Assembly: GCA_903941205.1 (NCBI GenBank)
Contig: CAJAOB010000066.1
Location: 1-36,453, forward strand
Direction of reading: 5' to 3'
DNA: 36,453 nt
Origin: an uncultured Burkholderiales bacterium
GTDB lineage: Bacteria; Pseudomonadota; Gammaproteobacteria; Burkholderiales; Burkholderiaceae_C
Positions 1,787-23,833 of this stretch are shown here, one piece after another. The notes beneath the pieces were generated by a model. It saw only the letters and a program-made list of their open reading frames with translations, did no database searches and had not been told where the DNA came from. Every line of letters begins with the position of its first letter. The first letter of the stretch is position 1. A program made the translations under genes and the position numbers.

Positions 1787-2818
1787 ATGACCCCCCTTAA
1801 AACCACGGCTGAATTGTTTGGCGAGCATCCGTCCATGGTGGACTTGCGCAAGCTGATTGGCCGGGTGGCCCGCAGCAAGGCCCGCACGGTGCTGATTTAT
1901 GGCGAAACCGGCACCGGCAAGGGACTGGTCGCGCGCAGGGTCCACGAGGAATCCCAGCGCGCTGCCGCGCCTTTTGTGGACATCAACTGCGCCGCCATTC
2001 CGTCGGCGCTGCTCGAGTCTGAATTGTTCGGCCACGAAAAAGGGGCTTTCACGGGCGCGGTCAGCCGCAAGCAGGGGCTGATCGAAGCGGCTCACGGGGG
2101 CACCTTTTTCCTCGACGAGGTGCGGGAGCTGGACCCGGTGATGCAGGCCAAGTTCCTGACCTTGCTCGACACCCGCAGGATGCGCCGGCTCGGCGGCGTG
2201 CGTGATGAGGCGGTCGATGTGCGCTTTATTGCCGCCACCAACAAGATTTTGCTGGGGGAGGTCAAGGCGGGGAATTTTCGGGATGACCTGTATTACCGCT
2301 TGCAGGTGATTGCCATCAACATTCCGCCGCTGCGGGAGCGCGGCGACGACGTGTTCTTGCTGGCCGGGAATTTTCTGGAGAAGTACAACCGCGAGCATGG
2401 CAGCCAGCTGCGCGAGATGGACCAGGCGGTTCGGGAGGTCTTCAGGCGCTACAGCTGGCCGGGCAATGTGCGAGAACTCGAAAACCTGATCGAGCGCTTG
2501 TGCCTGCTTGAAGACGGGGAGCGGATTCGCCTGGAGCACCTGCCCCAGCGCATCCTGCGCGAGACCCAGGCGGCGCAGCCGCTGGCTGGCACGGGCTCGG
2601 CCCCGCCAGCTCGGTCGGGGCTGGTGGTCGGGCCGGTCGGGTCGATGGAGCCGGGTGAGCCCGGCTACCACCTGGCAACGCAGCAGTTTCAGCGCGAGCT
2701 GATCGCCGGGGCACTGGCTGCCTGCGGGAACAATCTGGCCATGGCCGCGCAGCGCCTGGGGCTGAGTCGCCATGCGCTGCGGCATCAAATGGCCAAGTTG
2801 GGCTTGCGGGCGCCTTGA
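1787..2818 (+). CDS. Sigma-54-dependent transcriptional activator (AAA+ domain plus Fis-type HTH, no N-terminal sensor domain)
   Basis: Walker A GETGTGKG, sigma-54 contact motif GAFTGA, Walker B FFLDE, and C-terminal Fis-like HTH (AACGNNLAMAAQRLGLSRHALRHQMAKLGL). Start MTPLKTTAELFGEHPSM at 1787 puts the AAA+ domain at the N-terminus. Confidence 0.92.
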   Translation: MTPLKTTAELFGEHPSMVDLRKLIGRVARSKARTVLIYGETGTGKGLVARRVHEESQRAAAPFVDINCAAIPSALLESELFGHEKGAFTGAVSRKQGLIEAAHGGTFFLDEVRELDPVMQAKFLTLLDTRRMRRLGGVRDEAVDVRFIAATNKILLGEVKAGNFRDDLYYRLQVIAINIPPLRERGDDVFLLAGNFLEKYNREHGSQLREMDQAVREVFRRYSWPGNVRELENLIERLCLLEDGERIRLEHLPQRILRETQAAQPLAGTGSAPPARSGLVVGPVGSMEPGEPGYHLATQQFQRELIAGALAACGNNLAMAAQRLGLSRHALRHQMAKLGLRAP

Positions 2819-2860
2819 AGGAAACCTTGACCGGCGCCCTGCCCGGCGCGCGGGCAGATT

Positions 2861-2901
2861 TGGCGTGAGAAGCACGCCAGAATGCGTGCGTTACACGCAT
2901 T
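2861..2901. promoter_or_regulatory. Tandem inverted repeats, candidate upstream activating sites for the adjacent sigma-54 activator
   Basis: TGGCGTG-AGAAG-CACGCCA (2861-2879) and AATGCGTG-CGTTA-CACGCATT (2881-2901). Both arms pairs are perfect, share GCGTG-N5-CACGC, and have centres 21 bp apart. Confidence 0.65.
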
Positions 2902-2971
2902 TGCTGGCGCCGCGTGCCCCGGCTGCTGGCCAGAGCCTTGATTTATATGAAGTTTTTCAAGGATCGGCGTC

Positions 2972-2986
2972 TGGTACGGATTCTGC
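2972..2986 (+). promoter_or_regulatory. Candidate sigma-54 (-24/-12) promoter TGGTACG-GATT-CTGC
   Basis: Compared with consensus TGGCACG-N4-TTGC, 9 of 11 specified bases match and the invariant GG and GC are at correct spacing. Located 57 bp upstream of the ATG at 3043. Confidence 0.65.
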
Positions 2987-3042
2987 GGAGAAGAAGGCTT
3001 GTTCACTCACCCGCTGGCGCACACAAAGCCCCAAACCCTCGC

Positions 3043-4404
3043 ATGAAATCCCTGAAAATCATCTGCCCCAACGGCCATCTCGGGTTTGCGCCCTTGCGCC
3101 TTGAAAGCTTTCTGCTCGGCGTCAAGGCGGGCCCGCACTACATCGCGGCCGATTCGGGCAGCGACGACGTCGGCCCGGTCCCGCTGGGCTCGGACACCTC
3201 CACCAGCCCCCGCTCCTGGCAAATGCAGGACCTCGAACACATGCTGCTGGCCGCGCGCAAGCTGGGCGTGCCCATGATCATCGGCTCGGCCGGCGACACC
3301 GGCTCGAACAGCCGGGTCGACATGTACGTGGCCATGATCCAGGAATTGGCCCTCAAACACGGCCTGGGCCCTTTTCGCCTCGGCTATTTTTACTCTGAAG
3401 TGCCCAAGGAGCGCGTGCGCCAGGCCATTCGGGGCGGCAGCCCGGTGCGCGGTCTGGACGGCTATGCCGACTTGACCGAGTCCGAACTGGACGCCACGGA
3501 CCGCATCGTGGCGATGGCCGGTGTTCATCCCTTCATGGAGCTGCTGCGCCAGGGCGCTGACGTGATCATCGGCGGGCGCAGTTCGGACGCCGCCTTGTTT
3601 GCTTCGGCAGCCTTGCACCACGGCTTTCATGCCGACCAGGCTTACTACCTGGGCAAGGTGCTCGAATGCGCGTCTTTCTGCGCCGAGCCCTACGGCGGCA
3701 AAGAAACCGTGATGGGCGAGATCACCGAGCAGGATGTTCGCGTCACCGCCATGCTGCCGGCGCAGCGCTGCACCATTGCCTCGGTGTCGGGCCACGCCAT
3801 GTACGAGCGCTCCAACCCCTATGAAGAATTTTTCGCCGGCGGCAAGCTCGACATGACGAACTGCCACTACGAGCAGCTCGACGAGCGCACCACCCGGGTC
3901 ACCGGCTCACGGTTTTTGCCCGACGCCAAGGTACGCGTCAAGCTCGAAGGCGCGGGCAGGGTCGGCGAACGTTTTGTTGGTCTGTGCGGCATCCGCGATC
4001 CGTACACGATCGCCAATGTGGACAAGGTGATCGAGTGGGCCCGCGAGCAGGTGCGCGCCCGCTTTGGCGAGACCGGCTATGAGCTGCACTACAACGTGTA
4101 CGGCCGCGACGGCGTGATGGGCGACCTTGAGCCGCTGCGCGACCAGCCCGGCCACGAGCTATGCGTGATGGTGCAGGGCGTGGCGCCGACCCGCGAGATG
4201 GCCGAGGAACTCACCATGATCGGTCTGCGGCAAATGTTTTACGCACGCCTGCCGGACGTCAAGGGAACGGCCGGCTCGGTATCGTTTCCGCTGGACGAGG
4301 TCTTGCCAGCCAGCGCAGCCTACCGCTGGACGCTCAATCACACGCTCGAAGTCGACAACGCCATGGAGCTGTTTGCGACCCATCTGATCAACGTCGGCGC
4401 CTGA
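3043..4404 (+). CDS. AtuA-like (DUF1446, acyclic terpene utilization) family protein
   Basis: Translation MKSLKIICPNGHLGFAPLRLESFLLGVKAGPHYIAADSGSDDVGP... GSAGDTGSNSRVD... resembles the DUF1446/AtuA family. Confidence 0.82.
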   Translation: MKSLKIICPNGHLGFAPLRLESFLLGVKAGPHYIAADSGSDDVGPVPLGSDTSTSPRSWQMQDLEHMLLAARKLGVPMIIGSAGDTGSNSRVDMYVAMIQELALKHGLGPFRLGYFYSEVPKERVRQAIRGGSPVRGLDGYADLTESELDATDRIVAMAGVHPFMELLRQGADVIIGGRSSDAALFASAALHHGFHADQAYYLGKVLECASFCAEPYGGKETVMGEITEQDVRVTAMLPAQRCTIASVSGHAMYERSNPYEEFFAGGKLDMTNCHYEQLDERTTRVTGSRFLPDAKVRVKLEGAGRVGERFVGLCGIRDPYTIANVDKVIEWAREQVRARFGETGYELHYNVYGRDGVMGDLEPLRDQPGHELCVMVQGVAPTREMAEELTMIGLRQMFYARLPDVKGTAGSVSFPLDEVLPASAAYRWTLNHTLEVDNAMELFATHLINVGA

Positions 4405-4433: not shown

Positions 4434-4754
4434 ATGACCACTGAAAAACTTCACCAGCTCGCCAAGACCATCCGCAGCAAGAATGCCGGCGTCAACAAAA
4501 TCACCTTCGACATCATCTTTCGTGAACCCGCGGTCTATGAGCGCGTCAAGCGCTCGGGCGTGATCACGGCGGCGTCGATGGCGGCGCTCTACCGCATTCC
4601 GCGCGAGCGCATCAGCGACTTTGTCGAGTACGACCCCGGCAACGCGATCAAGTTCACCATCTACCGCCTCAGACCCAGCGGCAGTGCCGGCGACGGCGAC
4701 ATCTTTGGCGCGCAGCAATACGCGCCGCTGCTCGACCTCGAGATTCCGGGCTGA
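4434..4754 (+). CDS. DUF4387-like small protein
   Basis: 106-aa ORF MTTEKLHQLAKTIRSKNAGVNKITFDIIF..., 29 bp after the AtuA-like gene; the pairing with AtuA-like proteins is familiar. Confidence 0.75.
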   Translation: MTTEKLHQLAKTIRSKNAGVNKITFDIIFREPAVYERVKRSGVITAASMAALYRIPRERISDFVEYDPGNAIKFTIYRLRPSGSAGDGDIFGAQQYAPLLDLEIPG

Positions 4755-4843: not shown

Positions 4844-5821
4844 ATGAAAAAATTTCTCGCTCTGGCCATGCTCCCGCTCAGCATCCTCGCGCTGACGCCC
4901 GCCGCCCATGCCCAGGCTGACGCCGCCAAGCCGCCGGCGGTGATCCGCCTGGTGGTGCCGTTTGCCGCTGGCGGCAGCAACGACGTGATTGCCCGGGTCA
5001 TTGCCCCGGCGCTAGCCAAACGCCTGGGCAACACCATCATTATTGAAAACAAGCCCGGTGCCGCGGGCGCCATTGGCTCGGATGCCGTGGCCAAAGGCGC
5101 CAAGGACGGGTCGGTCTTGTTGCTGACCTCATCAAGCCTGCTGACCGCCGCGGCCACCATGCCCAAGACCACGCCCTACGACGTGCTGACGGCATTTGCG
5201 CCGGTCGCCATGGTCGGCCAGGGGCCCATGCTGGTGGCGGTGTCGGGCACGACAACCCTCAAGACACCGGCCGAGTTTGTTGCCGCCGCCAAAGCCAAGC
5301 CCGGCTCAGTCACCTACGGAACCTCCGGCCAGGGCTCGATTGCACACATGAGCAGCGAAATGCTCAGTGACGCGGCCAAAGTGCAGATGCTGCATGTGCC
5401 CTACAAGGGCGCGGCCCCCGCACTGCTCGACCTGGCCTCCGGACAGATCAACATGATGATCTCCAACTACTCGTCGCTGGCCCCGCAGATCAAGGCCGGC
5501 CGCGTGCGGGCCCTGGCCGTCACGTCCCGGCAAGCCAGCCCGTCCTTTCCAGACTTGCCGCCCATGGAAAGCGTGGCCCCCGGCTTTGCCGCCGAAATCT
5601 GGGTGAGCGTGTTTGCGCCGGCCGGCACGCCCGCGGCGCTGGTGCAACGACTCAATCGCGAGATCATTGAAGTCGCTCGCCTGCCCGAAGTGCGCAGCTT
5701 GCTCGAAGCCGACGGCGCGCAGCCCACGCCGCTGTCCCCAGCCGAAGTGGCGCTGCGCGTCAAGGAAGACCTGGCTGCCTGGAAGAAAATCGCGACTGAG
5801 AAGAACATCTCGGCGGAATAA
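4844..5821 (+). CDS. Tripartite tricarboxylate transporter substrate-binding protein (Bug family)
   Basis: Signal peptide MKKFLALAMLPLSILALTPAAHAQA followed by Bug hallmarks IRLVVPFAAGGSNDVIAR, IIIENKPGAAGAIGSDAVAK, VTYGTSGQGS. Confidence 0.92.
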   Translation: MKKFLALAMLPLSILALTPAAHAQADAAKPPAVIRLVVPFAAGGSNDVIARVIAPALAKRLGNTIIIENKPGAAGAIGSDAVAKGAKDGSVLLLTSSSLLTAAATMPKTTPYDVLTAFAPVAMVGQGPMLVAVSGTTTLKTPAEFVAAAKAKPGSVTYGTSGQGSIAHMSSEMLSDAAKVQMLHVPYKGAAPALLDLASGQINMMISNYSSLAPQIKAGRVRALAVTSRQASPSFPDLPPMESVAPGFAAEIWVSVFAPAGTPAALVQRLNREIIEVARLPEVRSLLEADGAQPTPLSPAEVALRVKEDLAAWKKIATEKNISAE

Positions 5822-5906: not shown

Positions 5907-6851
5907 TCAAAAAACGCTCTTCCTCAACCAGTCCGCAAAAGCCGCGCATTCCCAGCGGTCCATCATGCCGGTGCGCCAGCACAGGTAATGGGCGTGCGGG
6001 CTGGGCACGTTGCGCTCGTAGAGGCGCACCAGCGAGCCGTTTTCCAGCCAGGGCGCGCCGAGCTTGATGCGCACCAGGGCGATGCCCATGCCGGCGGCGG
6101 CGGCGTCGCACATGAGGCCGATGTCGTTGAACTGGGAGCCTTCCAGCGGCTCGGGCCAGTCGAGCTGATGGGCGCCGAACCAGGTGCGCCAGGGCTCCAG
6201 CGGCGAGCGCAGCAGCGCTTCGCCTTCGAGGTCTTCGGGGGCGTCAAAAGGCCCGTGTTCGCGCACATAGGCCGGCGAAGCCAGCGGCGTCACCTCGTCC
6301 TGCATCAGGCTGACATGCTCGACGTCGGCGTAGCGGCCGGTGCCAAAGCGCACCATCAGGTCGGCGTCTTCGGCCACCACGTCGAGCAGCGGAATCGACA
6401 CTTGCAGCGTCAGGTCGATCTCGGGATAAGCCTCGGTGAACTGGCGCAGGCGCGGGATCAGGATGGAGCGCGAGAACGTGGGCGTCACGGCCAGGCGCAG
6501 CTTGCGCTTGCCGGGGTTGGCGCTCTGGCCGGCGGTGCCCGGAAACTTTTGCAGCGTGGCCAGGCCTTCGCGCACATGGGCGAGATATTCGCTGCCCTCG
6601 GTGGTGAGTGAAAAATCGGCGCGCCCGAACAGCTTGGTGCCAATGATTTGCTCGAGCTGCTTGACGCGGTGGCTGACGGCGCTGGGCGTGACGAAGAGTT
6701 CTTCGGCCGCCTGCGTGACGCTGCGCAGGCGGGCCAGCGCCTCGAACGTCAACAGGCACTGGATGGGCGGAATCCGTTTGGCGCCCGAGTTCGGGTTGGC
6801 GTTGGCGTTGGGGTTGGGGCTGGCAACCCAGCTGGCGTTCTGACTGGCCAT
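5907..6851 (-). CDS. LysR family transcriptional regulator (GcvA-like)
   Basis: N-terminal winged HTH LLTFEALARLRSVTQAAEELFVTPSAVSHRVKQLEQIIGTKLFGR and LysR substrate-binding domain. Confidence 0.9.
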   Translation of the reverse strand: MASQNASWVASPNPNANANPNSGAKRIPPIQCLLTFEALARLRSVTQAAEELFVTPSAVSHRVKQLEQIIGTKLFGRADFSLTTEGSEYLAHVREGLATLQKFPGTAGQSANPGKRKLRLAVTPTFSRSILIPRLRQFTEAYPEIDLTLQVSIPLLDVVAEDADLMVRFGTGRYADVEHVSLMQDEVTPLASPAYVREHGPFDAPEDLEGEALLRSPLEPWRTWFGAHQLDWPEPLEGSQFNDIGLMCDAAAAGMGIALVRIKLGAPWLENGSLVRLYERNVPSPHAHYLCWRTGMMDRWECAAFADWLRKSVF

Positions 6852-6874
6852 GACGCGCTCCCGGCAGGCTCGGA

Positions 6875-7735
6875 TTATTTGAAGATCACGGTCTTGTGGC
6901 CGTTGAGCAGCACGCGGTGCTCGCTGTGCCACTTGACGGCGCGGGCCAGCACCTGGCTTTCGGTGTCGCGGCCCATGGCGGTCAGGTCTTCGACCGTGCG
7001 GCTGTGCTCCACGCGGGCCACGTCCTGCTCGATGATCGGGCCTTCGTCGAGGTCGGAGGTGACGTAGTGCGCGGTCGCGCCTATGAGCTTGACGCCGCGC
7101 GCATGCGCCTGGTGGTAGGGCTTGGCGCCCTTGAAGCTGGGCAAGAACGAATGGTGAATATTGATCGCGCGGCCGGCCAGGTTCTGGCACAGCTCGTCGC
7201 TCAAAATTTGCATGTAGCGCGCCAGCACCACCAGCTCGGCGCCTTCAGACTGGATCACCTCGTACTGCCGCGCCTCGGCCTCGGCCTTGGTGGCGGCCGT
7301 CACCGGGATGTGGTGAAAGGGCACGTTGTAGCTGGCGGCGAGCTGATAAAAGTCGCGGTGGTTCGAGACGATGGCGCGGATGTCGAGCTTGAGCAGGCCC
7401 GACTTCCAGCGAAACAGCAGGTCGTTCAGGCAGTGGCCTTCCTTGCTGACCATGAGCACGGTTTTCATGGGCTGGCTGGCTTGGTGCAGGCTCCAGCGCA
7501 TGTTGAAGTCGCCGGCCAGCACGGCCAGGTCTTCCTTGATTGCTTCAAAGCTCAGCTGCTTGCAGGCAAAGCCCACGCGCATGAAAAACAGGCCGGTGGC
7601 GTCCTGGTCCTTGTCGTCGGCGTATTGGGCGGCGTCCAGGATATTGCCGCCGCGCTCGAACAAAAAGCCCGAAACGGCATGAACAATGCCCGGGCGATCC
7701 GGGCAGGACAGGGTGAGTGTGTAGGTGGGGCTCAT
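6875..7735 (-). CDS. purU: Formyltetrahydrofolate deformylase
   Basis: N-terminal ACT domain (LTLSCPDRPGIVHAVSGFLFERGGNI) and formyltransferase domain (INIHHSFLPSFKGAKPYHQAHARGVKLIGATAHYVTSDLDEGPIIEQD). Confidence 0.96.
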   Translation of the reverse strand: MSPTYTLTLSCPDRPGIVHAVSGFLFERGGNILDAAQYADDKDQDATGLFFMRVGFACKQLSFEAIKEDLAVLAGDFNMRWSLHQASQPMKTVLMVSKEGHCLNDLLFRWKSGLLKLDIRAIVSNHRDFYQLAASYNVPFHHIPVTAATKAEAEARQYEVIQSEGAELVVLARYMQILSDELCQNLAGRAINIHHSFLPSFKGAKPYHQAHARGVKLIGATAHYVTSDLDEGPIIEQDVARVEHSRTVEDLTAMGRDTESQVLARAVKWHSEHRVLLNGHKTVIFK

Positions 7736-9568: not shown

Positions 9569-12500
9569 CTAGGAGCGTTTGCCGTTCAGTCTGGCCAGCA
9601 TGCGCCTGAACCATTGCTCCAGATCGTCGACATAAGTGAACACCGCTGGCACCACCAGCAGGCTCAGGACGGTGGACGTGATCAGCCCGCCGATCACGGC
9701 AATCGACATCGGCGAGCGAAAGCTCGGGTCGGCGGCGCCCAGGCCGAAGGCAATGGGCAGCATGCCGGCGCCCATGGCCAGCGTGGTCATGATGATGGGG
9801 CGGGCGCGTTTGTGGCACGCGTCCAAGAGCGCCTCGCCGCGACCCATGCCCGCCACGGCGGGTCGCCCGTCGCTGCCGTCATGGCCGCGCCTGGCCACGA
9901 TGGCGTATTCCACCAGCAGGATCGAGTTCTTGGTGGCAATGCCCATGAGCATGATCAGCCCGATCAGGGACGGCATGGAAAAGCTTTTTTGCGCCAGCAG
10001 CAGGCCGACGAAGGCGCCGCCCAGCGACAGCGGCAGCGCGGCCAGGATCGTCACCGGGTGCAAAAAGTCCTTGAACAGCAGCACCAGCACGATGTAGATG
10101 CACAGCACGCCGGTCAGCATGGCCAGGCCAAAGCTGGCAAACAGCTCGCCCATGACCTCGGCGTCGCCGATCTCGACCACCTTGACGGCGGCCGGCAGGT
10201 TTTTCACCGCGGGCAACTCCTGCACCGCACGCGTCACGTCGCCCAGCGGCAGCCCTGAAAGCTCGATCTCGAAGTTGACGTTGCGCGAGCGGTCATAGCG
10301 GTCGATCACCGCCGGACCGGCAGCGATCTCCAGACTGGCCACCTGCGCCAGCATGACCGGGCCGGCGCCAGGCCGCAGGCTGGGCACGCTCAGGCGTTCG
10401 AGCACGCTCAGGTCGCGCCTGGCGGCGTCTTCGAGCTTGACCACGATGGGCACCTGGCGCTCGGGCAAATTGAGCTTGGGCAGCGACATCTCGTAGTCGC
10501 CCAGCGTGGCGATGCGCAGGGTTTCGCCAATCGCCGCGCTGGTCACGCCCAGGTCGGCGGCGCGCGCAAAGTCGGGGCGCACGGCGATTTCGGGCCGGGT
10601 CAGGCTGGCGCTGGACGCCACATTGCCCAGGCCGGGCACCGTGCGCAGGTCTTTTTCCACCGCGCGCGCGGCGGTCTGCAAGGCCAGCGGGTCTTCGCCG
10701 GTGAGCACCAGCACGTATTTTTCGCCCGAGCCGCCCAGCCCAACCTTGCTGCGCACGCCGGGCAGGGCTTCGAGGGCGGTGCGCATCTTGTTTTCAATGC
10801 CTTGCTTGCGCGGGCGCTCGCTGCGCTCGGTCAGCAGCACGGTCAGCGTGGCCTTGCGGGTTTCGGCGCTGCCGGCCATGGCAAACGGGTCGGTGCCAGC
10901 ACTGCCGCCGCCAATGGTGGTGTAGATGCTGCGCACATGCTCGACCCGGCTGACCAGCTGGCGCGCCTGCTCGGCGGCGGCCAGGCTTTGCGCCAGCGTC
11001 GAGCCGGGCGGCAGCTCAAGGTAGACCTGCGTTTGCGAGTTGTCGTCTGGCGGGATGAAGCCTGTCGGCAAGAGCGGGATCAGGGCCACCGAGCCAAAAA
11101 AGAACAGCGTGGCGCCGACCATGGTCAGCACGCGGTGCTTCATGCACCAGGCGGCGGCGCGCAGGTAGCGCGTCATCCAGGCCGGGTCCTGGTGCGCCGT
11201 GACGATGGGTTTGAGCAGGTAGGCCGCCATCATGGGCGTGAGCACGCGCGCCACCACCAGCGAAGCGAACACCGCCAGCGAGGCGGTCCAGCCGAACTGC
11301 TTGAAGAACTTGCCGGCCACGCCGCTCATGAAAGCCGTCGGCAAAAACACCGCCACCAGCGTGAAGGTGGTGGCCACCACGGCCAGGCCGATTTCGTCGG
11401 CCGCTTCCATCGCCGCCTGGTAGGGCGACTTGCCCATGCGCAGGTGCCGCACGATGTTCTCCACCTCGACGATCGCGTCATCAACCAGAATGCCGATGAC
11501 CAGCGAGAGCGCCAGCAGCGTCACCACATTGATCGAAAAACCCAGCCAGTACATGCCGATGAAGGCCGGGATCACCGACAGCGGCAAGGCGACCGCCGAG
11601 ACCAGCGTGGCGCGCCAGTCGCGCAGAAAAATCCAGACCACGATGACGGCCAGAATCGCGCCTTCGTAGAGCAGCTTGAGCGAGCCCTGGTATTCCTCGC
11701 GCACCGGCTCGACAAAGTTGAAGGCTTCGGTCAGCACCAGGTCCGGGTGCTGGGCTTGCAGCGACTTGAGCGCTGCCTGCACCGCGTCGCCCACGGCCAC
11801 CTCGCTCTCACCGCGGCTGCGCGAGACCTCGAAACCGACCACCGGCCGGCCGTCGAGCAGCGCGGCCGAGCGTGGCTCGGCGATGGTGTCGCTGACCGTG
11901 GCGACCTGGTCGAGCCGGATGCGCCGGCCGTCGCCGAGCGCCAGTTCCAGCTGGGCGAGCTCCTGCGCCGACTTGACCGTGGCCAGCGTGCGCACGGGTT
12001 GCTCGCTGCCGCCCAGGTCGGTGCGGCCGCCGGCGCTTTCGGTTTGCACCTGGCGCAGCTGGCGCGAGATGTCGGCGGCCGTCGCGCCCAAGGCTTGCAG
12101 GCGCAAGGGATCGAGCGCCACGCGCAGCTCGCGCGTAACGCCGCCCACGCGGTTGACCGCGCCCACACCGCGCACCGCCAACAGCTTGCGGGCCACCTCG
12201 TTGTCAACAAACCAGGACAGCGCCGCCGCGTCCATGCGCGCCGAAGCGATGGTGAAGGCCAGCACCGGCTGGCCGGCCAGATCGACCTTGCTGACGATGG
12301 GGTCCGACAGGTCGCCGGGCAGCTCGGAGCGCACGCGCGCCACCGCCGAGCGCACATCGTCAATGGCTTCCTGCACCGGCTTTTCAAGCCGGAATTCAGC
12401 CGTGACGGTGACCCCGCCGTCTTGCACCTTGGTGTACATGTGCTTGAGGCCTTGCACCGTGGCGATCGAGTTTTCGAGCTTGCGCGCGACCTCGGTTTCC

Positions 12501-12676
12501 AGCTGCGCGGGCGCCGCGCCCGGCAAGGAGGCGGCCACGCTGATGGTCGGCAAATCAATGTCCGGGAAGTTCTGCACCTTCATGGCCTGGAAGGACAGCA
12601 TGCCGGCAAAAGCCAGCAGCACGAACAGCATCACCGCCGGGATCGGGTTCTTGATCGACCAGGTCGAAACGTTCAT
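9569..12676 (-). CDS. RND family efflux transporter, inner-membrane pump (AcrB/MdtB-like)
   Basis: 1035-aa translation with typical RND N-terminus (STWSIKNPIPAVMLFVLLAFAGMLSF), MYTKVQDG, and TM4 motif ALSLVIGILVDDAIVEVEN. Confidence 0.95.
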   Translation of the reverse strand: MNVSTWSIKNPIPAVMLFVLLAFAGMLSFQAMKVQNFPDIDLPTISVAASLPGAAPAQLETEVARKLENSIATVQGLKHMYTKVQDGGVTVTAEFRLEKPVQEAIDDVRSAVARVRSELPGDLSDPIVSKVDLAGQPVLAFTIASARMDAAALSWFVDNEVARKLLAVRGVGAVNRVGGVTRELRVALDPLRLQALGATAADISRQLRQVQTESAGGRTDLGGSEQPVRTLATVKSAQELAQLELALGDGRRIRLDQVATVSDTIAEPRSAALLDGRPVVGFEVSRSRGESEVAVGDAVQAALKSLQAQHPDLVLTEAFNFVEPVREEYQGSLKLLYEGAILAVIVVWIFLRDWRATLVSAVALPLSVIPAFIGMYWLGFSINVVTLLALSLVIGILVDDAIVEVENIVRHLRMGKSPYQAAMEAADEIGLAVVATTFTLVAVFLPTAFMSGVAGKFFKQFGWTASLAVFASLVVARVLTPMMAAYLLKPIVTAHQDPAWMTRYLRAAAWCMKHRVLTMVGATLFFFGSVALIPLLPTGFIPPDDNSQTQVYLELPPGSTLAQSLAAAEQARQLVSRVEHVRSIYTTIGGGSAGTDPFAMAGSAETRKATLTVLLTERSERPRKQGIENKMRTALEALPGVRSKVGLGGSGEKYVLVLTGEDPLALQTAARAVEKDLRTVPGLGNVASSASLTRPEIAVRPDFARAADLGVTSAAIGETLRIATLGDYEMSLPKLNLPERQVPIVVKLEDAARRDLSVLERLSVPSLRPGAGPVMLAQVASLEIAAGPAVIDRYDRSRNVNFEIELSGLPLGDVTRAVQELPAVKNLPAAVKVVEIGDAEVMGELFASFGLAMLTGVLCIYIVLVLLFKDFLHPVTILAALPLSLGGAFVGLLLAQKSFSMPSLIGLIMLMGIATKNSILLVEYAIVARRGHDGSDGRPAVAGMGRGEALLDACHKRARPIIMTTLAMGAGMLPIAFGLGAADPSFRSPMSIAVIGGLITSTVLSLLVVPAVFTYVDDLEQWFRRMLARLNGKRS

Positions 12677-13890
12677 GGTTTGGCTCCTGCCTTGCCGGCC
12701 GGCGCTGCGGGGGCGGCTGCAGGGGTGGGGACAGGTGCGGGCGAGGAGGCCGCAGGGGATGCAGCTGAAGGCGTTGCCTCGGCCACGCGCACCAGATCGC
12801 CGTCATTCAAAAAGCCGGCGCCACTGACAACGATGGACGCATCGGGCGTCAGCCCGGACAGCAGCTCGACCTGCTCGCCCACCAGCCGGCCGGTTTGCAC
12901 CTTGCGCTGGCGCACGCGCTGGTCGGGGCCGAGCTCGAAGACGTAGTTGAAACCGTCGCGCACCACCAGCGCGCGCTGGGCGATGGTTTGCGCGCTGGAG
13001 CTGCCCAGGTCGAACTCGCCGCGCGCGAACATGCCGGGTCGGGCCTGCATCTGGGGCTGTACCGGCAAGTCAACGTAGACCAGCGCCGAGCGGGTTTGCG
13101 GATCGACCGTGGGCGCGATCATGCGCACCCGGCCCTGCAGCTCGCCGCCGGCCACGGGCTGCACGCTCACCCGCATGCCCGGGCGCAAGCGCGCGAGTTC
13201 GGCTGAAGTCACCTCCGCGCGCCACTCGAGCCGGCCCTGGCGGATCAGCCGGAACAGCTCGGTGCCGGTGCCGACGACCGCGCCCAAGGTGGCACTGCGG
13301 GCAGAAATGATGCCGGCGTCGGGCGCCAGCACCGTGGTTTGCTGGGCGCGCAACTCCTGCACTTTCAAGGCGGCGCGGGCTGCGGCAACGCGCGCCTCGG
13401 CGGCTTGCGCGCTGGCCGCGTACTGGCTGATTTGCTGCGCGCTCAGCGCGCCCGAGCCTTGCAGCGTGCGCGCCCGCTCGGCGTTGCTGACGGCTTCTGC
13501 CGCATTGGCCTGGGCTTCGAGCAGGCTGGCGCGGGCCTGCGCCACATCGGCCTGCACGCTGTCACTGGCAAAGACGGCCAGCGTCTGCCCGGCGCTGACA
13601 CGGTCGCCGACATTGACCAGCAGCTGCGACAGGCGCAAGCCGTTGGACTCCGCGCCCACCAGTGCCTCTTGCCAGGCGGCGATATTGCCGTTGGCCGCCA
13701 GCCGGATCGGCAGCTGCACGGTCTGCGTGCGGGCCACCGAGACAGTCAGCGCAGGGCGGCCGGGTGCGGCGGCAGGCGCCGGCGCCGCGCCTTGCGGGGC
13801 GCGCTTGGCGCTGATCACAAAGTAAGCACCAGCGGCCAGCGACACGGCGAGCAGGACCAAGAGCGTGCGCTTGAGCGGAAAAGGGTTCAT
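12673..13890 (-). CDS. RND efflux periplasmic adaptor (membrane fusion protein)
   Basis: Single N-terminal TM, lipoyl/hairpin organisation (VGDRVSAGQTLAVFASDSVQADVAQARASLLEAQ...), and 4-bp overlap with the downstream pump gene. Confidence 0.93.
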   Translation of the reverse strand: MNPFPLKRTLLVLLAVSLAAGAYFVISAKRAPQGAAPAPAAAPGRPALTVSVARTQTVQLPIRLAANGNIAAWQEALVGAESNGLRLSQLLVNVGDRVSAGQTLAVFASDSVQADVAQARASLLEAQANAAEAVSNAERARTLQGSGALSAQQISQYAASAQAAEARVAAARAALKVQELRAQQTTVLAPDAGIISARSATLGAVVGTGTELFRLIRQGRLEWRAEVTSAELARLRPGMRVSVQPVAGGELQGRVRMIAPTVDPQTRSALVYVDLPVQPQMQARPGMFARGEFDLGSSSAQTIAQRALVVRDGFNYVFELGPDQRVRQRKVQTGRLVGEQVELLSGLTPDASIVVSGAGFLNDGDLVRVAEATPSAASPAASSPAPVPTPAAAPAAPAGKAGAKP

Positions 13891-13997
13891 GGTGAATCTT
13901 TTGTCAAAGGGTCAGGAAAGCCCGGGCGCCTGATGCTGCGGGCAGCAGCGACGGCGGGTTGAAGGCGTGAGAAAGCCGGCAAGGCATGGGCAGGGCT

Positions 13998-15506
13998 TCA
14001 GCGCGCCAGGGCCGTGGGCGCCGCTTCGCGGTCAGGCAGGCTGCGCGTCCAGCCGCCGCCCATGGCGCGGTACAGCGACACCCAGGCGGCCAGACGCTCG
14101 CGCTGCAAGCCGGCGTCCAGCGATTGGGCCGCCAGTTGCTGGCGCCGGGCGTCTTCGAGTTCGAGCCCGCTGGCAAGGCCGGCCCGGTGGCGGGCGTCGG
14201 CGCCGGCCAGCGCGGCGCGGTAGTCGGCCAGCGCGCTTTGGGCCTCGCGGCTGCGGTCGGCCGTGGCCTGCAAGTTCACCAGCGCTTCCTCCACCTCGCG
14301 CACCGCCAGCCGGACGCGGGCGCGGTACAAGGCGGCGGCTTCTTCGTAACGCGCCTTCGCGGCCTGCACATTGGCCGCGCTGCGGCCGGCGTCAAAGATC
14401 GGCAAGCTCAGGGCCACCGGCCCGACCGACCAGGTGCTGAGTTCGCTGTTGTCGCCATTGAGGCTCAGGCCCGAGCGGCCGATAGCGCCTGTCAGGCTCA
14501 GGCGCGGGTAACGCTGGGCTTCGGCAGCGCCCACATCGGCGCTGGCCGCGGCCACCTCGCGTTCGGCGGCAAACACATCGGGCCGCTGTGCCAGCGCCTG
14601 GGCCGGCACGCTGTCAAGGCGCAGCGCTGCGGGCGACAAGATCGCGTCACCGGCGGGGGAACGCGCCTGCAACTGCGCGCGCAAAGCCGGCTCGGCCAGC
14701 CCCGTCAGTGCCACGAGAGCCTTGAGCTCAAGCTCGCACTGGCCGCGCTGCTGACTGGCGCGGCCACCGGCTTCGGCCGCGCCGGCACGGGCCAGCACGG
14801 CCAGAGCCGGCGCCGTGAACCCCGCTTGCGCGCTCAAGTCGCTCAGGCGCGCCGTTTGCTGGCGTGACAGCGCTTCGGCCAGCGCCAGGTCTTCGAGCTG
14901 GCGGCAGCTGCGCCAGGCGATGTAATGGTTGGCCAGCTCGGCGGCCACTGAAACGCGCGCCTCGTGCCACTGCGCCTGAGCCCCGGCCAGGCGCTCGCTG
15001 GCAGCGCTCTGGCCGGCCCGCTTGCTGCCAAAAAGATCGATTTCCCAGGACGCCTGCAAGCCGGCCTGCGCGCTGCTGACCGTGGGCGCCGGCCCGGGCA
15101 TGCCGGGCTGCTGCGCCAGGCTTCGGCTGATGCTGGCGTTGGCGTCCAGCCGCGGCAGCGTGTCGGCGCCCGCAGACACCCGCACTGCGCGCGCCTGCTC
15201 AAGCCGCGAGCGAGCGCTCGCCACACTCGGGCTGAGCTCCTGCGCGGCCTGAATCAGCGCCACAAGCACCGGGTCGCCCAGCTGCTCCCACCAGCGCGCC
15301 AACTCGGGCAGCTGGCCCCGGTGCGGCAAACCGGCCGCAGCGACGGGCGCCTGCCACTGCGCGGGCAGCGCCGGTGCGGGCATGGCGGGTGGCGCAGGCA
15401 GCGCGCAAGCGCCCAGCAACACCAGCGCAGCCACGCTGGCCACACCGGGCCGCAAGCGGCGCCACGCCCCCCGGGCCCCTGAACAATCTGACGGTATGCG
15501 CTTCAT
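13998..15506 (-). CDS. Efflux transporter outer membrane lipoprotein, NodT/OMF family
   Basis: Lipobox ALVLLGACALP and OMF repeat organisation (RPDVFAAEREVAAASADVGAAEAQRYPRLSLTGAIG). Start assigned to MKRIPSDC at 15506. Confidence 0.92.
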   Translation of the reverse strand: MKRIPSDCSGARGAWRRLRPGVASVAALVLLGACALPAPPAMPAPALPAQWQAPVAAAGLPHRGQLPELARWWEQLGDPVLVALIQAAQELSPSVASARSRLEQARAVRVSAGADTLPRLDANASISRSLAQQPGMPGPAPTVSSAQAGLQASWEIDLFGSKRAGQSAASERLAGAQAQWHEARVSVAAELANHYIAWRSCRQLEDLALAEALSRQQTARLSDLSAQAGFTAPALAVLARAGAAEAGGRASQQRGQCELELKALVALTGLAEPALRAQLQARSPAGDAILSPAALRLDSVPAQALAQRPDVFAAEREVAAASADVGAAEAQRYPRLSLTGAIGRSGLSLNGDNSELSTWSVGPVALSLPIFDAGRSAANVQAAKARYEEAAALYRARVRLAVREVEEALVNLQATADRSREAQSALADYRAALAGADARHRAGLASGLELEDARRQQLAAQSLDAGLQRERLAAWVSLYRAMGGGWTRSLPDREAAPTALAR

Positions 15507-15842
15507 TCGACGGCCTTTGCCTTGCCAGTGAAAATCCATGAGCTCAATCGGCGGGCAGACTGCTGCGCTGGCCGCCGAAGGCCACGGCCCGAATTGAAAC
15601 ATAGGCGAGTGGCATTTTTGCGTTTGCAGGGCTTTCAGGCCTCGCTTGGCAGACTGGCATGGGGGTGGCTGCGGCGAGGGTTCAGCTTGCGTCGGCCGAA
15701 AAAAGGGGGACCGTTTGATTCGGCTGAATCGCTGAAGGCGTCCATCAGCTCCCGCGGCTCATGGCGCTCCAGCGCCTCAAAGCCCTTATCGCGACGGCAT
15801 CAAGCCTGACCCTGATGACCGGGCGGGACCGGCTTCACGCAC

Positions 15843-18776: not shown

Positions 18777-21700
18777 ATGGATCCCGCACCCCCTCTTTCA
18801 ACCCTGATGCCGTCTCGCCGTTTGCGCTTGGCCGCCCGGGCAGCGCGGGTGCTGCTCTGGCTGCTCCTGTCGTGGTGGCTGGTGGTGGGCATCAGCTGGG
18901 GGCTGCTACACGGCTGGATTGTGCCGCGAATCAGCGATTTTCGCCCGCGCCTGGAAGCCGAGGCGAGCCGTGCCCTGGGGGTGCCGGTGCGCATCGGCCA
19001 GATCCAGATGCGCTCGCGCGGCCTGATCCCCTCATTTGAGCTGAGCGAAGTTACTTTTCTGGACCGAGAAGGGCGCGCCGCCTTGCGCCTGCCCAGCGTG
19101 CTGGCGGCGCTGTCGCCGCGCTCGCTCTGGAATCTGGGCTTCGAGCAGCTGGTGATCGAAGGCGCCGAGTTGGATGTTCGCCGCCTTGCCAGCGGCCAGA
19201 TTCAGGTCGCAGGGCTTGAACTGTCGCAAAAAAGCACGAATGGCGGCAGCGCTATGGCCGACTGGGCGCTGGAGCAGACCGAGCTGGTCCTGCGCGGCGG
19301 CACCCTGCGCTGGACGGACGACATGAATGCCGCGCCGCCGCTGGCCCTGACGCAGGTGGACGCCGTGCTGCGCAATCCCGGCCAGCGCCACCTGGTGCGC
19401 CTGGACGCCACACCGCCGCCGGCCTGGGGCGAGCGCTTCAGCCTGCGGGCAATGCTGCGCGAGCCACTGCTGGACCGCCAGGGGGCGCCATGGCAGCGCT
19501 GGTCGGGCGAGGTCTATGGTGAGTTCAGCCGCGCCAATGTGTCGCAACTCAAGCAGTACATCCGGCTGGCGCAATTCGGTATCGACGTGAGCAGCGGAGA
19601 GGGTGCGCTGCGCGCCTGGCTGGACCTGAGCAAGGGGCAGTTCACAGGCGGCACCGCCGACTTGGCGCTGCGCGGCGTGAGCGCGCGGCTGGGCCAGGAG
19701 CTGCAGCCGCTGGCGCTGAGTTCGGTGGCCGGACGCTTTGGCGGCAAGCGGCTGAGCGGCGGTTTTGAGTTCCACACCGAGGGGCTGCGCTTCGTGGCCG
19801 ATGACGGGCTGGTCTGGCCGGGCGGCAACGTGGCGCTGCTGCACACCGAAACCGAGGGCCGGCAGCCTGCACGCACCGAACTCAAGGCCGACAAGCTGGA
19901 CTTGGCGGCACTGGCGCGCATCGCCAGACGCTTGCCATTGCAAGCCAGTGCCCACACGCTGCTGGACAGCTTTTCGCCGCAGGGGCTGGTCGAGCAGCTG
20001 GAGGCCAGCTGGCAGGGCGAGTTGTCGGCGCCACTGGCGCTGAGCGCGCGCGGCCGGGTCAGCCGCCTGACGCTGGCCGCGGGCATTGCCGAACCCGGCC
20101 TTGCTGCGAGCCCAGGCGGCAAGCCCCAGCCCGGCCGGCCGGGCATTGAGAACGCCTCGGTCGAGTTCAAGCTCACCCAGGACGGCGGCCAGGCGCAGGT
20201 GCAAATGGCCAGTGGCGCGCTGGAGTTTCCGGGCGTGTTCGAACAGCCGCGGGTGCTTTTCAACGAATTGTCAACCGAGGTCTCGTGGCAGGGCAGCGGC
20301 GCCAAACGCGAAGTGCAGTTGCGCAAGCTACGCTTTGCCAATGCCGATGTGGCCGGCCAGGCCGAAGTGCGCTGGCGCAGCAACGAGGAAGCGCCCGTGC
20401 CGGTCGCAGACGCAGCCGCGGGTGCCGCGCCAGTGCGCCGCCCGGGCGTGCTTGATTTGCAGGGCAGCTTGAGCCGCGGCGACGCCAGCCAGGTTCACCG
20501 CTACCTGCCGCTGGTCTTGCCCGAAGCCGCCCGCCACTACGTGCGCGACGCGGTCACGCAGGGGCGTCTCAACGAGGTCCGGTTCAAGGTCAAGGGCGAC
20601 TTGCGAAAGCTGCCTTTTGCCGACCCGAAGGACGGCGATTTCCTGGTCAGCGCCAATGCCACTAATCTGCGCTACGCCTATGTGCCCGCCGCCGCAGCCG
20701 CCAGCGCCAAGAGCTGGCCGGCGCTGGAGGCGCTGCAAGGTGAGCTGGTTTTCAGCCGGCAGAGCCTGGAATTGCGCGGCGTACAGGGCCGCGTGGCCGG
20801 TCTGGCCGGCTTGCAGCTCAGCCGTGGCAGCGCCCGCATACCCGACCTCGCCCGCAGCGTGGTGGAAGTCAACGCGGTCATCAGGGGGCCACTGGCGCAG
20901 GGCCTGCAATTAGTCAACAACTCGCCGGTCTCGGCCATGCTCGGTGATGGCCTGCTGCAAACCAGCGCAACGGGACCGATGGACTACAGCATGCGACTGA
21001 TGCTGCCGCTGGCCGAGCTCTCGCAGACCAGCGTGCAGGGCAGCTTGAACCTGCCGGGCAACGACGTGCAGTTTGGCCCCGAAACGCCGCTGCTGGGGCG
21101 CTTGCGCGGGACGCTGAGTTTCACTGAAAACAGCCTGCGCGTGAGCAATGCCCAAGCGCGCCTGCTGGGCGGCGACATTCGTTTTGAAGGCGGCTTGCGG
21201 CCGAACCCGGGCGCGGCGCGGCCCGCTGGGACGATTTCTGGCACGGCTTCCAGTCCTGGGAGCGGCTCCGCAAATGGGTCTGGAAGTGGCCTGGGCAACG
21301 CCAATGCGCCGGTCAACATCGAGCCGCTCGAGGCCCCGCTGTTGTTTCGCGGCCAGGGCACGGTTTCGGCCGAAGGCCTGCGGCAGGCGCGCGAGTTGGG
21401 CCTCATCAGCGGTCTGGCGCTGCATGCCAGCGGCAGCACCAGTTACAGCGCGGTATTGGGTTTTCGCCGGGGCCAGACAGAACTGAGCGTCAGCAGCAAT
21501 TTGCAAGGGCTGGCGCTGAACCTGCCCGCACCGCTGGCCAAGCCGGCCGCCGAAGCGCTGCCCTTGCAATTCGAGCGTGCGCTGCTGCGCGAATCACTGG
21601 CGCCCGGCCAGCGACTGCAAGACCAGCTCTCGCTGACGTTGGGCCGGCTTGCCAGCGTGCGCTACGTGCGTGAACTCGGTGGCGCCGAGCCGCGCGTGCT

Positions 21701-23030
21701 GCGCGGCAGCATTGGCGTCGGGCTTGCGCCCGGCGAATCAGCGCCAAGCCCGGAGCGGGAAGTGGCTGCCAATGTGAACCTGACGCGTGCCGACCTCGAC
21801 GAGTGGGGCCGTGTGCTGGAAGCGTCAAAGGCCAGCATGGCGGCTGGCAACGGCGCGGCGCGGACCACGGTCAACGTCAACAACGCCAGTGCAGCGGCTC
21901 AGGCCTATGGGCCCAGCGTGCTGGCGCTGCGCGCGGGCGAACTCAGCGTGCAGGGCTACCCCTTGCACAAGGTCGTGTTGGGCGCTTCGCGCGAGGGCGG
22001 CAACTGGCGCGCCAACATGGACGCCGACGAGCTCAGCGGCTATGCCGAGTTCCGCCAGCCGAGCGCTGCGCCGGGCGGTGCGGACGGGCGCCTTTTTGCC
22101 CGGCTCTCAAGGCTACGGCTAGGCGTCAGCACGGCGCGAGACGTCGAAGCCCTGCTGGAGGACCAGCCGTCGGCGATTCCTGCGCTGGACATCGTGGTGG
22201 ATGACTTTGAACTGCGCGGTAAAAAGCTCGGCCGACTGGACATCGAGGCCGTCAACCGGAGCGCCCAGCAGGCTGCCAGCAGCCTGCGCGAATGGCGTCT
22301 GAACAAGCTCAACCTGACGACGCCCGAAGCGGTGTTTTCAGCCAACGGCAATTGGGCCGCTGGCGCCAGCAGCGAGCGGCGCCGGGTACAGATGAATTTC
22401 AGGCTGGACATTGCCGACTCCGGCGAACTGCTCAAGCGACTGGGCATGGACGGGGCGCTGCGGCGCGGTAAAGGCCGGCTTGAAGGTCAGGTCGGCTGGC
22501 TGGGCTCGCCGCTGGGCCTGGACTACCCCAGCCTGGGCGGGCAGTTCAACGTCGGCATCGAGAGCGGCCAGTTCCTCAAGGCCGACCCGGGCCTGGCCAA
22601 GCTGCTGGGCGTGCTCAGCCTGCAAGCGCTGCCGCGCCGACTCACGCTGGATTTTCGCGATGTGTTCTCCGAGGGGTTCACTTTTGATTTTGTGCGTGGC
22701 GACGTCACCATCGAGCAAGGCCAGGCGCGCACCAACAACTTGCAGATGAAGGGCATCAACGCTGCCGTGCTGATGGAAGGCAGCGCCGACATTGCCCGTG
22801 AAACGCAGGACCTGCGGGTGGTGATCGTGCCCGAGCTCAACGCCGGAACCGCCTCGCTGATCGCCACCGTCATCAACCCGGCCGTCGGGCTCGGCACGTT
22901 TTTGGCGCAAATGTTCCTGCGCCGGCCACTGAGCGAAGCGGCGACGCAGGAGTTCCACATCGACGGCGGCTGGAGCGAGCCGCGCATCGTCCGCGTGGAG
23001 CGCCAGCCTGGCGCCGGGAAGCGTCCATGA
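18777..23030 (+). CDS. yhdP: YhdP/AsmA-like family protein (TIGR02099 type)
   Basis: 1417-aa protein with N-terminal TM (LLWLLLSWWLVVGISWGLLHGWIVPRISDFRPRLE) and C-terminal AsmA-like region (GGWSEPRIVRVER). Start at 18777 or 18807. Confidence 0.88.
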   Translation: MDPAPPLSTLMPSRRLRLAARAARVLLWLLLSWWLVVGISWGLLHGWIVPRISDFRPRLEAEASRALGVPVRIGQIQMRSRGLIPSFELSEVTFLDREGRAALRLPSVLAALSPRSLWNLGFEQLVIEGAELDVRRLASGQIQVAGLELSQKSTNGGSAMADWALEQTELVLRGGTLRWTDDMNAAPPLALTQVDAVLRNPGQRHLVRLDATPPPAWGERFSLRAMLREPLLDRQGAPWQRWSGEVYGEFSRANVSQLKQYIRLAQFGIDVSSGEGALRAWLDLSKGQFTGGTADLALRGVSARLGQELQPLALSSVAGRFGGKRLSGGFEFHTEGLRFVADDGLVWPGGNVALLHTETEGRQPARTELKADKLDLAALARIARRLPLQASAHTLLDSFSPQGLVEQLEASWQGELSAPLALSARGRVSRLTLAAGIAEPGLAASPGGKPQPGRPGIENASVEFKLTQDGGQAQVQMASGALEFPGVFEQPRVLFNELSTEVSWQGSGAKREVQLRKLRFANADVAGQAEVRWRSNEEAPVPVADAAAGAAPVRRPGVLDLQGSLSRGDASQVHRYLPLVLPEAARHYVRDAVTQGRLNEVRFKVKGDLRKLPFADPKDGDFLVSANATNLRYAYVPAAAAASAKSWPALEALQGELVFSRQSLELRGVQGRVAGLAGLQLSRGSARIPDLARSVVEVNAVIRGPLAQGLQLVNNSPVSAMLGDGLLQTSATGPMDYSMRLMLPLAELSQTSVQGSLNLPGNDVQFGPETPLLGRLRGTLSFTENSLRVSNAQARLLGGDIRFEGGLRPNPGAARPAGTISGTASSPGSGSANGSGSGLGNANAPVNIEPLEAPLLFRGQGTVSAEGLRQARELGLISGLALHASGSTSYSAVLGFRRGQTELSVSSNLQGLALNLPAPLAKPAAEALPLQFERALLRESLAPGQRLQDQLSLTLGRLASVRYVRELGGAEPRVLRGSIGVGLAPGESAPSPEREVAANVNLTRADLDEWGRVLEASKASMAAGNGAARTTVNVNNASAAAQAYGPSVLALRAGELSVQGYPLHKVVLGASREGGNWRANMDADELSGYAEFRQPSAAPGGADGRLFARLSRLRLGVSTARDVEALLEDQPSAIPALDIVVDDFELRGKKLGRLDIEAVNRSAQQAASSLREWRLNKLNLTTPEAVFSANGNWAAGASSERRRVQMNFRLDIADSGELLKRLGMDGALRRGKGRLEGQVGWLGSPLGLDYPSLGGQFNVGIESGQFLKADPGLAKLLGVLSLQALPRRLTLDFRDVFSEGFTFDFVRGDVTIEQGQARTNNLQMKGINAAVLMEGSADIARETQDLRVVIVPELNAGTASLIATVINPAVGLGTFLAQMFLRRPLSEAATQEFHIDGGWSEPRIVRVERQPGAGKRP

Positions 23031-23833
23031 AAGTCGCTGCGCTGCAAATGGTGTCCGGCATGGACTTGCAGGCCAATCTGCGTGTAGCCCACGCGCTGCT
23101 GGCCGAAGCCGCCGATCAGGGCGCTGAACTGGCGCTGCTGCCGGAATATTTTGGCCTGCTCGGCCCGAACGAGCGCAGCAAGCTCGGCGTGCAGGAAGCC
23201 GCTGGCAACGGACCGGTGCAGGACTTCCTGGCCAGGGCGGCGCGCGATTTCAAGCTCTGGCTGGTGGGCGGCACGATGCCGATTTCAACGGCCGACCCGG
23301 CGCGCGTGCGCAACGCCTCGCTGGTCTACGGGCCCGGCGGCGGCTGCGTGGCGCGCTACGACAAGATTCATCTCTTTCGCTTCAAGGACGGCCAGCACGA
23401 CCATGACGAGTCGCGCACGCTGGAGCCCGGCGAGCAGGCCGTGACGTTCGAGCTGCCTTCTGTCGACGGCCACTGCTACCGCGTGGGTCTGAGCGTTTGC
23501 TATGACCTGCGCTTTCCCGAGCTGTACCGCCGGCTCAAGGCCGATCTGCTGCTGGTGCCCAGCGCGTTCACCTTCACCACCGGGCAGGCGCACTGGGAGC
23601 TGCTGCTGCGCGCCCGCGCTGTCGAAAACCTGGCCTACGTGCTGGCGGCGGCCCAAGGCGGCCTGCACGACAACGGCAGACGCACCTGGGGCCGCAGCAT
23701 GCTGGTCGAACCCTGGGGCACGGTGCTGGCCCAGCGCGCTGAAGGCGCTGGCGTGGTCTTGGGCGAGGTGCGGCAAGCCGATTTACAGGCCTTGCGCCAG
23801 CAATTGCCAGCGTTGGGGCACGGGGTTTTATGA
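23027..23833 (+). CDS. Carbon-nitrogen hydrolase (nitrilase superfamily, Nit/YbeM-like)
   Basis: Catalytic Glu (LLPEYFG), Lys (YDKIHLF) and Cys (VGLSVCYDLRFPELYR) motifs; 4-bp ATGA overlap with yhdP. Confidence 0.93.
   Translation: MKVAALQMVSGMDLQANLRVAHALLAEAADQGAELALLPEYFGLLGPNERSKLGVQEAAGNGPVQDFLARAARDFKLWLVGGTMPISTADPARVRNASLVYGPGGGCVARYDKIHLFRFKDGQHDHDESRTLEPGEQAVTFELPSVDGHCYRVGLSVCYDLRFPELYRRLKADLLLVPSAFTFTTGQAHWELLLRARAVENLAYVLAAAQGGLHDNGRRTWGRSMLVEPWGTVLAQRAEGAGVVLGEVRQADLQALRQQLPALGHGVL

Follow-up and report, generated by a model that had tools for sequence, protein, structure and literature searches.

The paired inverted repeats at positions 2861–2901 of an uncultured Burkholderiales contig (CAJAOB010000066.1) very probably form a two-site upstream activating sequence (UAS, enhancer) of the adjacent bacterial enhancer-binding protein (bEBP), from which this activator would drive the sigma-54 promoter of an AtuA-DUF4387 gene pair. 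This assignment draws on the anatomy of the locus and on its comparison with orthologous loci in alpha- and betaproteobacteria.

Architecture of the Locus

The window (the whole stretch of 36,453 nucleotides that we analysed) contains the following elements.

1787–2818, plus strand: sensor-less bEBP (sigma-54 activator), assigned by translation, Pfam (PF00158, 7e-64; PF25601; PF02954) and the N-termini and motifs of orthologues
2861–2879, no strand: candidate UAS site 1, TGGCGTG-N5-CACGCCA (TGGCGTG 2861–2867, spacer AGAAG 2868–2872, CACGCCA 2873–2879), centre 2870, about −128; dyad and position conserved
2881–2901, no strand: candidate UAS site 2, AATGCGTG-N5-CACGCATT (AATGCGTG 2881–2888, spacer CGTTA 2889–2893, CACGCATT 2894–2901), centre 2891, about −107; dyad and position conserved
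2972–2986, plus strand: −24/−12 (sigma-54) promoter TGGTACGGATTCTGC, TGGTACG-N4-CTGC, score 9/12; position conserved across loci
3043–4404, plus strand: AtuA-family protein (PF07287), first gene of the predicted target operon
4434–4754, plus strand: DUF4387 protein (PF14330), second gene of the predicted target operon
4844–5821, plus strand: TctC-type solute receptor (tripartite tricarboxylate family; PF03401, 1.6e-56)

A first-pass annotation of this DNA had described two perfect inverted repeats with a common GCGTG-N5-CACGC core about 107–128 bp upstream of the start site implied by the TGG at 2972. Both statements are accurate. The perfect arms measure 7 bp in site 1 and 8 bp in site 2, and the centres lie 21 bp apart. 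With C2986 taken as −12, transcription would start near 2998 and the repeats would be centred at −128 and −107, within the range of about 80–150 bp upstream of −24/−12 elements that is expected for UAS dyads. The promoter itself presents GG and GC 10 bp apart in a TGGCACG-N4-TTGC context. Scored against TGGCACG-N4-TTGCA it is among the weaker elements of the loci compared, and taken alone it is weak evidence because matches to the consensus with two mismatches are no commoner than chance; its positional conservation (see below) backs the assignment.

The pair is rare. Three GCGTG-N5-CACGC matches occur in the window, compared to 0.31 expected from shuffled sequence (1 of 100 shuffles reached three). 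The home genome (4.02 Mb) holds 34 single matches versus 14 for a reversed control pattern, and a close pair with 3–9 bp between the sites occurs in it exactly once, as the array at 2861–2901 (control: 0). The third match in the window (23080–23094) lies within a run of YhdP, hydrolase and kinase genes and is probably due to chance. Two other combinations of perfect site and promoter in the home genome were discarded: C36 proved on reading to be coding sequence, and C386 was unconvincing.

The protein encoded at 1787–2818 (P0001) carries the AAA+ domain of a bEBP with the motifs GETGTGK, FFLDE and the loop GAFTGA, followed by an AAA lid (PF25601) and a C-terminal Fis-type HTH (PF02954, 7.6e-7) with the recognition helix SRHALRHQM. 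Neither Pfam nor the N-termini of orthologues revealed an N-terminal regulatory or sensor domain; orthologues with readable starts likewise begin about 35–45 residues before Walker A. Since this bEBP has no sensor domain, regulation of its activity or level would have to act in trans or through transcription. Our leading guess is that the signal reaches the protein through a partner encoded in the cluster. Downstream, the gene for the TctC receptor probably belongs to the AtuA-DUF4387 operon both here and in the Rhodoferax and Cupriavidus loci, as judged by synteny (L031, L078–L080). The literature searched contained no mention of DUF4387.

Conservation of the Repeats and the Promoter

AtuA relatives were gathered from genome contigs, sampled whole genomes and plasmids. 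The order activator–intergenic region–AtuA–DUF4387 is kept in about 40 alpha- and betaproteobacterial loci, and in most loci from these classes the activator gene lies directly upstream of the pair with 140–370 bp between. To these intergenic regions we applied an enumeration of all 5+5 dyads (1024 × 17 = 17,408), using 25 non-redundant regions from which the window was excluded. GCGTG-N5-CACGC emerged as the most frequent dyad, present in 18 of the 25 regions, whereas no dyad reached a count above 5 in any of 20 dinucleotide-shuffled sets. Of 26 non-redundant loci, 25 have a −24/−12 element scoring at least 9/12 at a distance of 52–89 bp upstream of the AtuA start (2.8% of shuffles). Sites matching in at least 9 of 10 positions occur in 19 of 25 loci (null mean 0.14, maximum 2), and nine of the 25 contain two sites spaced by 20–22 bp (null mean 0.007). 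Counted from the promoter, the site centres cluster at −127, −106, −95 and −84, that is, on one favoured helical face (Rayleigh R about 0.8 at a period of 10.5–10.75 bp with one site per locus, a figure that overstates independence because the loci are related by descent).

Since relatedness also inflates the motif statistics, we scored an out-of-sample set of 12 further non-redundant loci with the pattern fixed. The promoter was present in all 12 and a site of at least 9/10 in nine (null 0.04), with R at 0.63–0.65 and the same phase as in the first set. All of these statistics derive from scoring against a fixed consensus, because an iterated position weight matrix drifted to GC-rich registers 2 bp off. 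The check that the first-pass annotation had proposed, conservation at orthologous loci, came out in favour of its claim: the repeats are strongly conserved, as are their placement and helical phasing with respect to a sigma-54 promoter that is itself conserved.

The closest relative checked (G297, AtuA 83%) illustrates this pattern. It contains perfect sites, GCGTGAATATCACGC and GCGTGATATTCACGC, 20 bp apart at −126 and −106, and a promoter, TGGCACGGTGCATGCA, that is better than the one in the window, while the intergenic flanks have diverged around the kept sites. At L002 (1319–1353), each of the two sites GCGTGAATATCACGC and GCGTGATATTCACGC is the exact reverse complement of the other. Perfect or paired sites are not universal: three loci (L033, L038, L057) have weak sites, and in one (L077, genome G699) the activator is present but the interval between it and AtuA is free of sites; the promoter there lies at the operon head, where the nearest repeat has an 8-bp spacer. 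L051 contains a 9/10 dyad and lacks both activator and promoter.

Co-occurrence of Motif and Activator

Two loci, L045 and L071, have the motif and the promoter although no activator gene adjoins them, and in both cases an orthologue is encoded elsewhere in the genome (64% and 68% identity); in L071 the orthologue lies some 2 kb past the operon and is convergent with it. Conversely, six genomes or plasmid records without the motif–promoter pair encode at most paralogues of 42–47% identity, or nothing, and in the later set L184 and L202 have AtuA and lack the pair as well as an activator orthologue. By enumeration and by co-occurrence, the site sequence is specific to this activator and inherited with it. 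The recognition helix, S/TRHA(L/M)RH, is near-invariant among orthologues. These observations strengthen the earlier proposal that the repeats are the target of the 1787–2818 product: the motif follows the activator even where its gene is unlinked, and binding by this protein is predicted. Sites, promoter, phase, activator domains and co-occurrence are all features that can be read from the compared sequences.

One locus departs from the pattern in two respects. In the activator of L049 the loop GAFTGA is replaced by GSFAGA, and L049 is the only locus without a −24/−12 element; L200 carries the same intergenic sequence (L049, 2367–2519). The threonine of GAFTGA is required for contact with sigma-54, as known from PspF. 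Because of this requirement, the joint loss of GAFTGA and the promoter fits the model, and the change at L049/L200 may represent a switch away from sigma-54.

Alternative Explanations

A dyad of this kind would suit any dimeric HTH protein, and the window does encode a LysR-type regulator (5907–7190). One alternative is that a different dimeric regulator, whether encoded at the locus (LysR- or GntR-type, for example) or acting globally, binds the repeats while the bEBP uses other sites. This explanation appears improbable. The LysR gene is not conserved at other loci, the bEBP is the sole regulator common to them, and the motif follows the bEBP orthologue in linked and unlinked cases alike. 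Moreover, the sites fall within the UAS range and in phase with a sigma-54 promoter.

The stretch also folds well (z −2.75), as would be expected if the repeats acted as RNA hairpins, either as the terminator of the activator gene, an alternative named by the first-pass annotation, or as a leader structure. The good folding is explained by the palindromes being perfect in this genome. We searched 2780–3060 for an intrinsic terminator (GC-rich stem and T run) and found no terminator-like site and no T run after the stems. The arms in orthologues are often imperfect, yet the GCGTG sequence is kept and compensatory changes do not occur. The position of the repeats counts from the promoter, and further genomes have such sites ahead of another operon. 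Since they lie upstream of the presumed +1, the repeats would not be part of the AtuA leader. We regard the hairpin explanation as very unlikely, and the terminator version fails on both the missing site and the absence of covariation. Even less can be said for chance repeats in GC-rich DNA. The 34 single sites in the home genome do show that isolated matches arise, but the pair is unique there and the conservation across alpha- and betaproteobacteria is far above that of shuffled sequences, which makes coincidence a negligible explanation.

Proposed Mechanism and Comparison with Known Systems

If the repeats are the UAS of the bEBP, dimers of this protein would bind GCGTG-N5-CACGC through the Fis-type HTH, and two sites spaced by two turns on one face of the DNA could nucleate the AAA+ hexamer about 107–128 bp upstream of the start site. 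Looping of the DNA would then allow the GAFTGA loops to touch sigma-54 RNA polymerase at the −24/−12 element (2972–2986), and ATP hydrolysis would open the promoter and switch on AtuA-DUF4387, here probably together with the TctC receptor. Binding, looping, activation and the extent of the operon are what the model predicts. The feature constitutes a new regulon of the well-known bEBP–UAS–sigma-54 kind; the mechanism is not new.

PspF of E. coli is a sensor-less bEBP that binds upstream sites (the pspA UAS) of a sigma-54 promoter. Like PspF, the bEBP of the window consists of AAA+ and Fis-type HTH without an N-terminal domain, and it matches PspF structures by sequence over residues 9–238. Unlike PspF, it scores 250.5 bits against a TIGR02974 cut-off of 443.55 and so falls short of the PspF equivalog; its predicted target genes are others, no PspA neighbour was seen, and its candidate site in the window is GCGTG-N5-CACGC. 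Paired dyads about 100–150 bp upstream of −24/−12 in helical phase are shared with the NtrC, NifA and NorR systems, but the window protein lacks a receiver, GAF or other sensor domain and stays below the corresponding equivalog cut-offs (306, 321 and 322 bits versus 559, 529 and 476). The dyad presumably also differs from the sites of these three regulators. L049/L200 resemble TyrR-type bEBPs without GAFTGA, which are sigma-70 regulators, in that the orthologue has lost GAFTGA and the promoter −24/−12; the window retains both.

In this way an unassigned bEBP clade gains a candidate binding motif, along with a predicted target promoter and a regulon that spans two classes of proteobacteria, and the regulation and the substrate of the AtuA-DUF4387 genes become directly testable. 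L049/L200 amount to a natural experiment on the function of GAFTGA.

A Probable Larger Regulon in Alphaproteobacteria

At many loci an AAT/C45-family acyltransferase gene ends immediately upstream of the activator and is itself preceded by a dipeptide-type ABC transporter. A second −24/−12 element stands at the head of this transporter–AAT–activator operon in all eight genomes examined. The associated sites, mostly in the same phase, lie at −107 (Bosea), −118, −147/−127 (three genomes), −148/−128 and −119/−96; the eighth genome is G699, with the 8-bp-spacer repeat described above. The presence of a second promoter with sites at the activator operon implies positive autoregulation, and in several alphaproteobacteria the bEBP appears to activate its own operon. 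Searches of 24 genomes for combined site and promoter patterns returned mostly single unsupported matches, among which the second site in Bosea was useful. L151, L152 and L101 show a second sigma-54 promoter with GCGTG-N5-CACGC-type sites; the operon behind it encodes an SBP_bac_5/Dpp-type transporter and an AAT/C45 acyltransferase.

In some Rhodobacteraceae an rpoN gene (PF04552, PF04963) adjoins the operon, and in most of these genomes it is additional to a copy elsewhere. The paralogue lies directly upstream of the transporter–acyltransferase–activator operon at the following positions.

L153, 2389–3798, plus strand: rpoN paralogue
L154, 8049–9362, minus strand: rpoN paralogue
L155, 8038–9363, minus strand: rpoN paralogue
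L156, 8070–9470, minus strand: rpoN paralogue

This ties the cluster-borne rpoN to a single activator and a pair of candidate target promoters. The home genome has no AAT-family gene and a single RpoN match, so that the window represents a compact version without second operon or extra rpoN.

Tentatively, and with more doubt than confidence, we suggest a self-contained, self-amplifying sigma-54 regulon in which the bEBP would drive AtuA-DUF4387 and also its own operon in many alphaproteobacteria, with a dedicated rpoN in some Rhodobacteraceae and the role of sensor taken by the AAT acyltransferase, AtuA or DUF4387. If true, such a regulon might explain one of the unassigned Rhodobacteraceae pairs, for example RpoN4 with RSWS8N_04525 in C. 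sphaeroides. In this family, RpoN3–AprX of Cereibacter sphaeroides likewise couples a bEBP to an rpoN paralogue of its own, and AprX, which contains a REC domain, regulates xrpA (PMC11999139). Unlike AprX, the module described here would combine a sensor-less bEBP with predicted metabolic targets.

Other genes of the window include a GlcD-like FAD-linked oxidase (110–1612) that is divergent from the activator and has no conserved counterpart at the other loci, and a run of genes for YhdP, a carbon–nitrogen hydrolase and a PAS histidine kinase (18777–25950). An RND efflux system is encoded on the minus strand at 9569–15602 (AcrB-type pump, HlyD-type fusion protein and OEP outer membrane protein), and a second OEP protein at 34577–36094.
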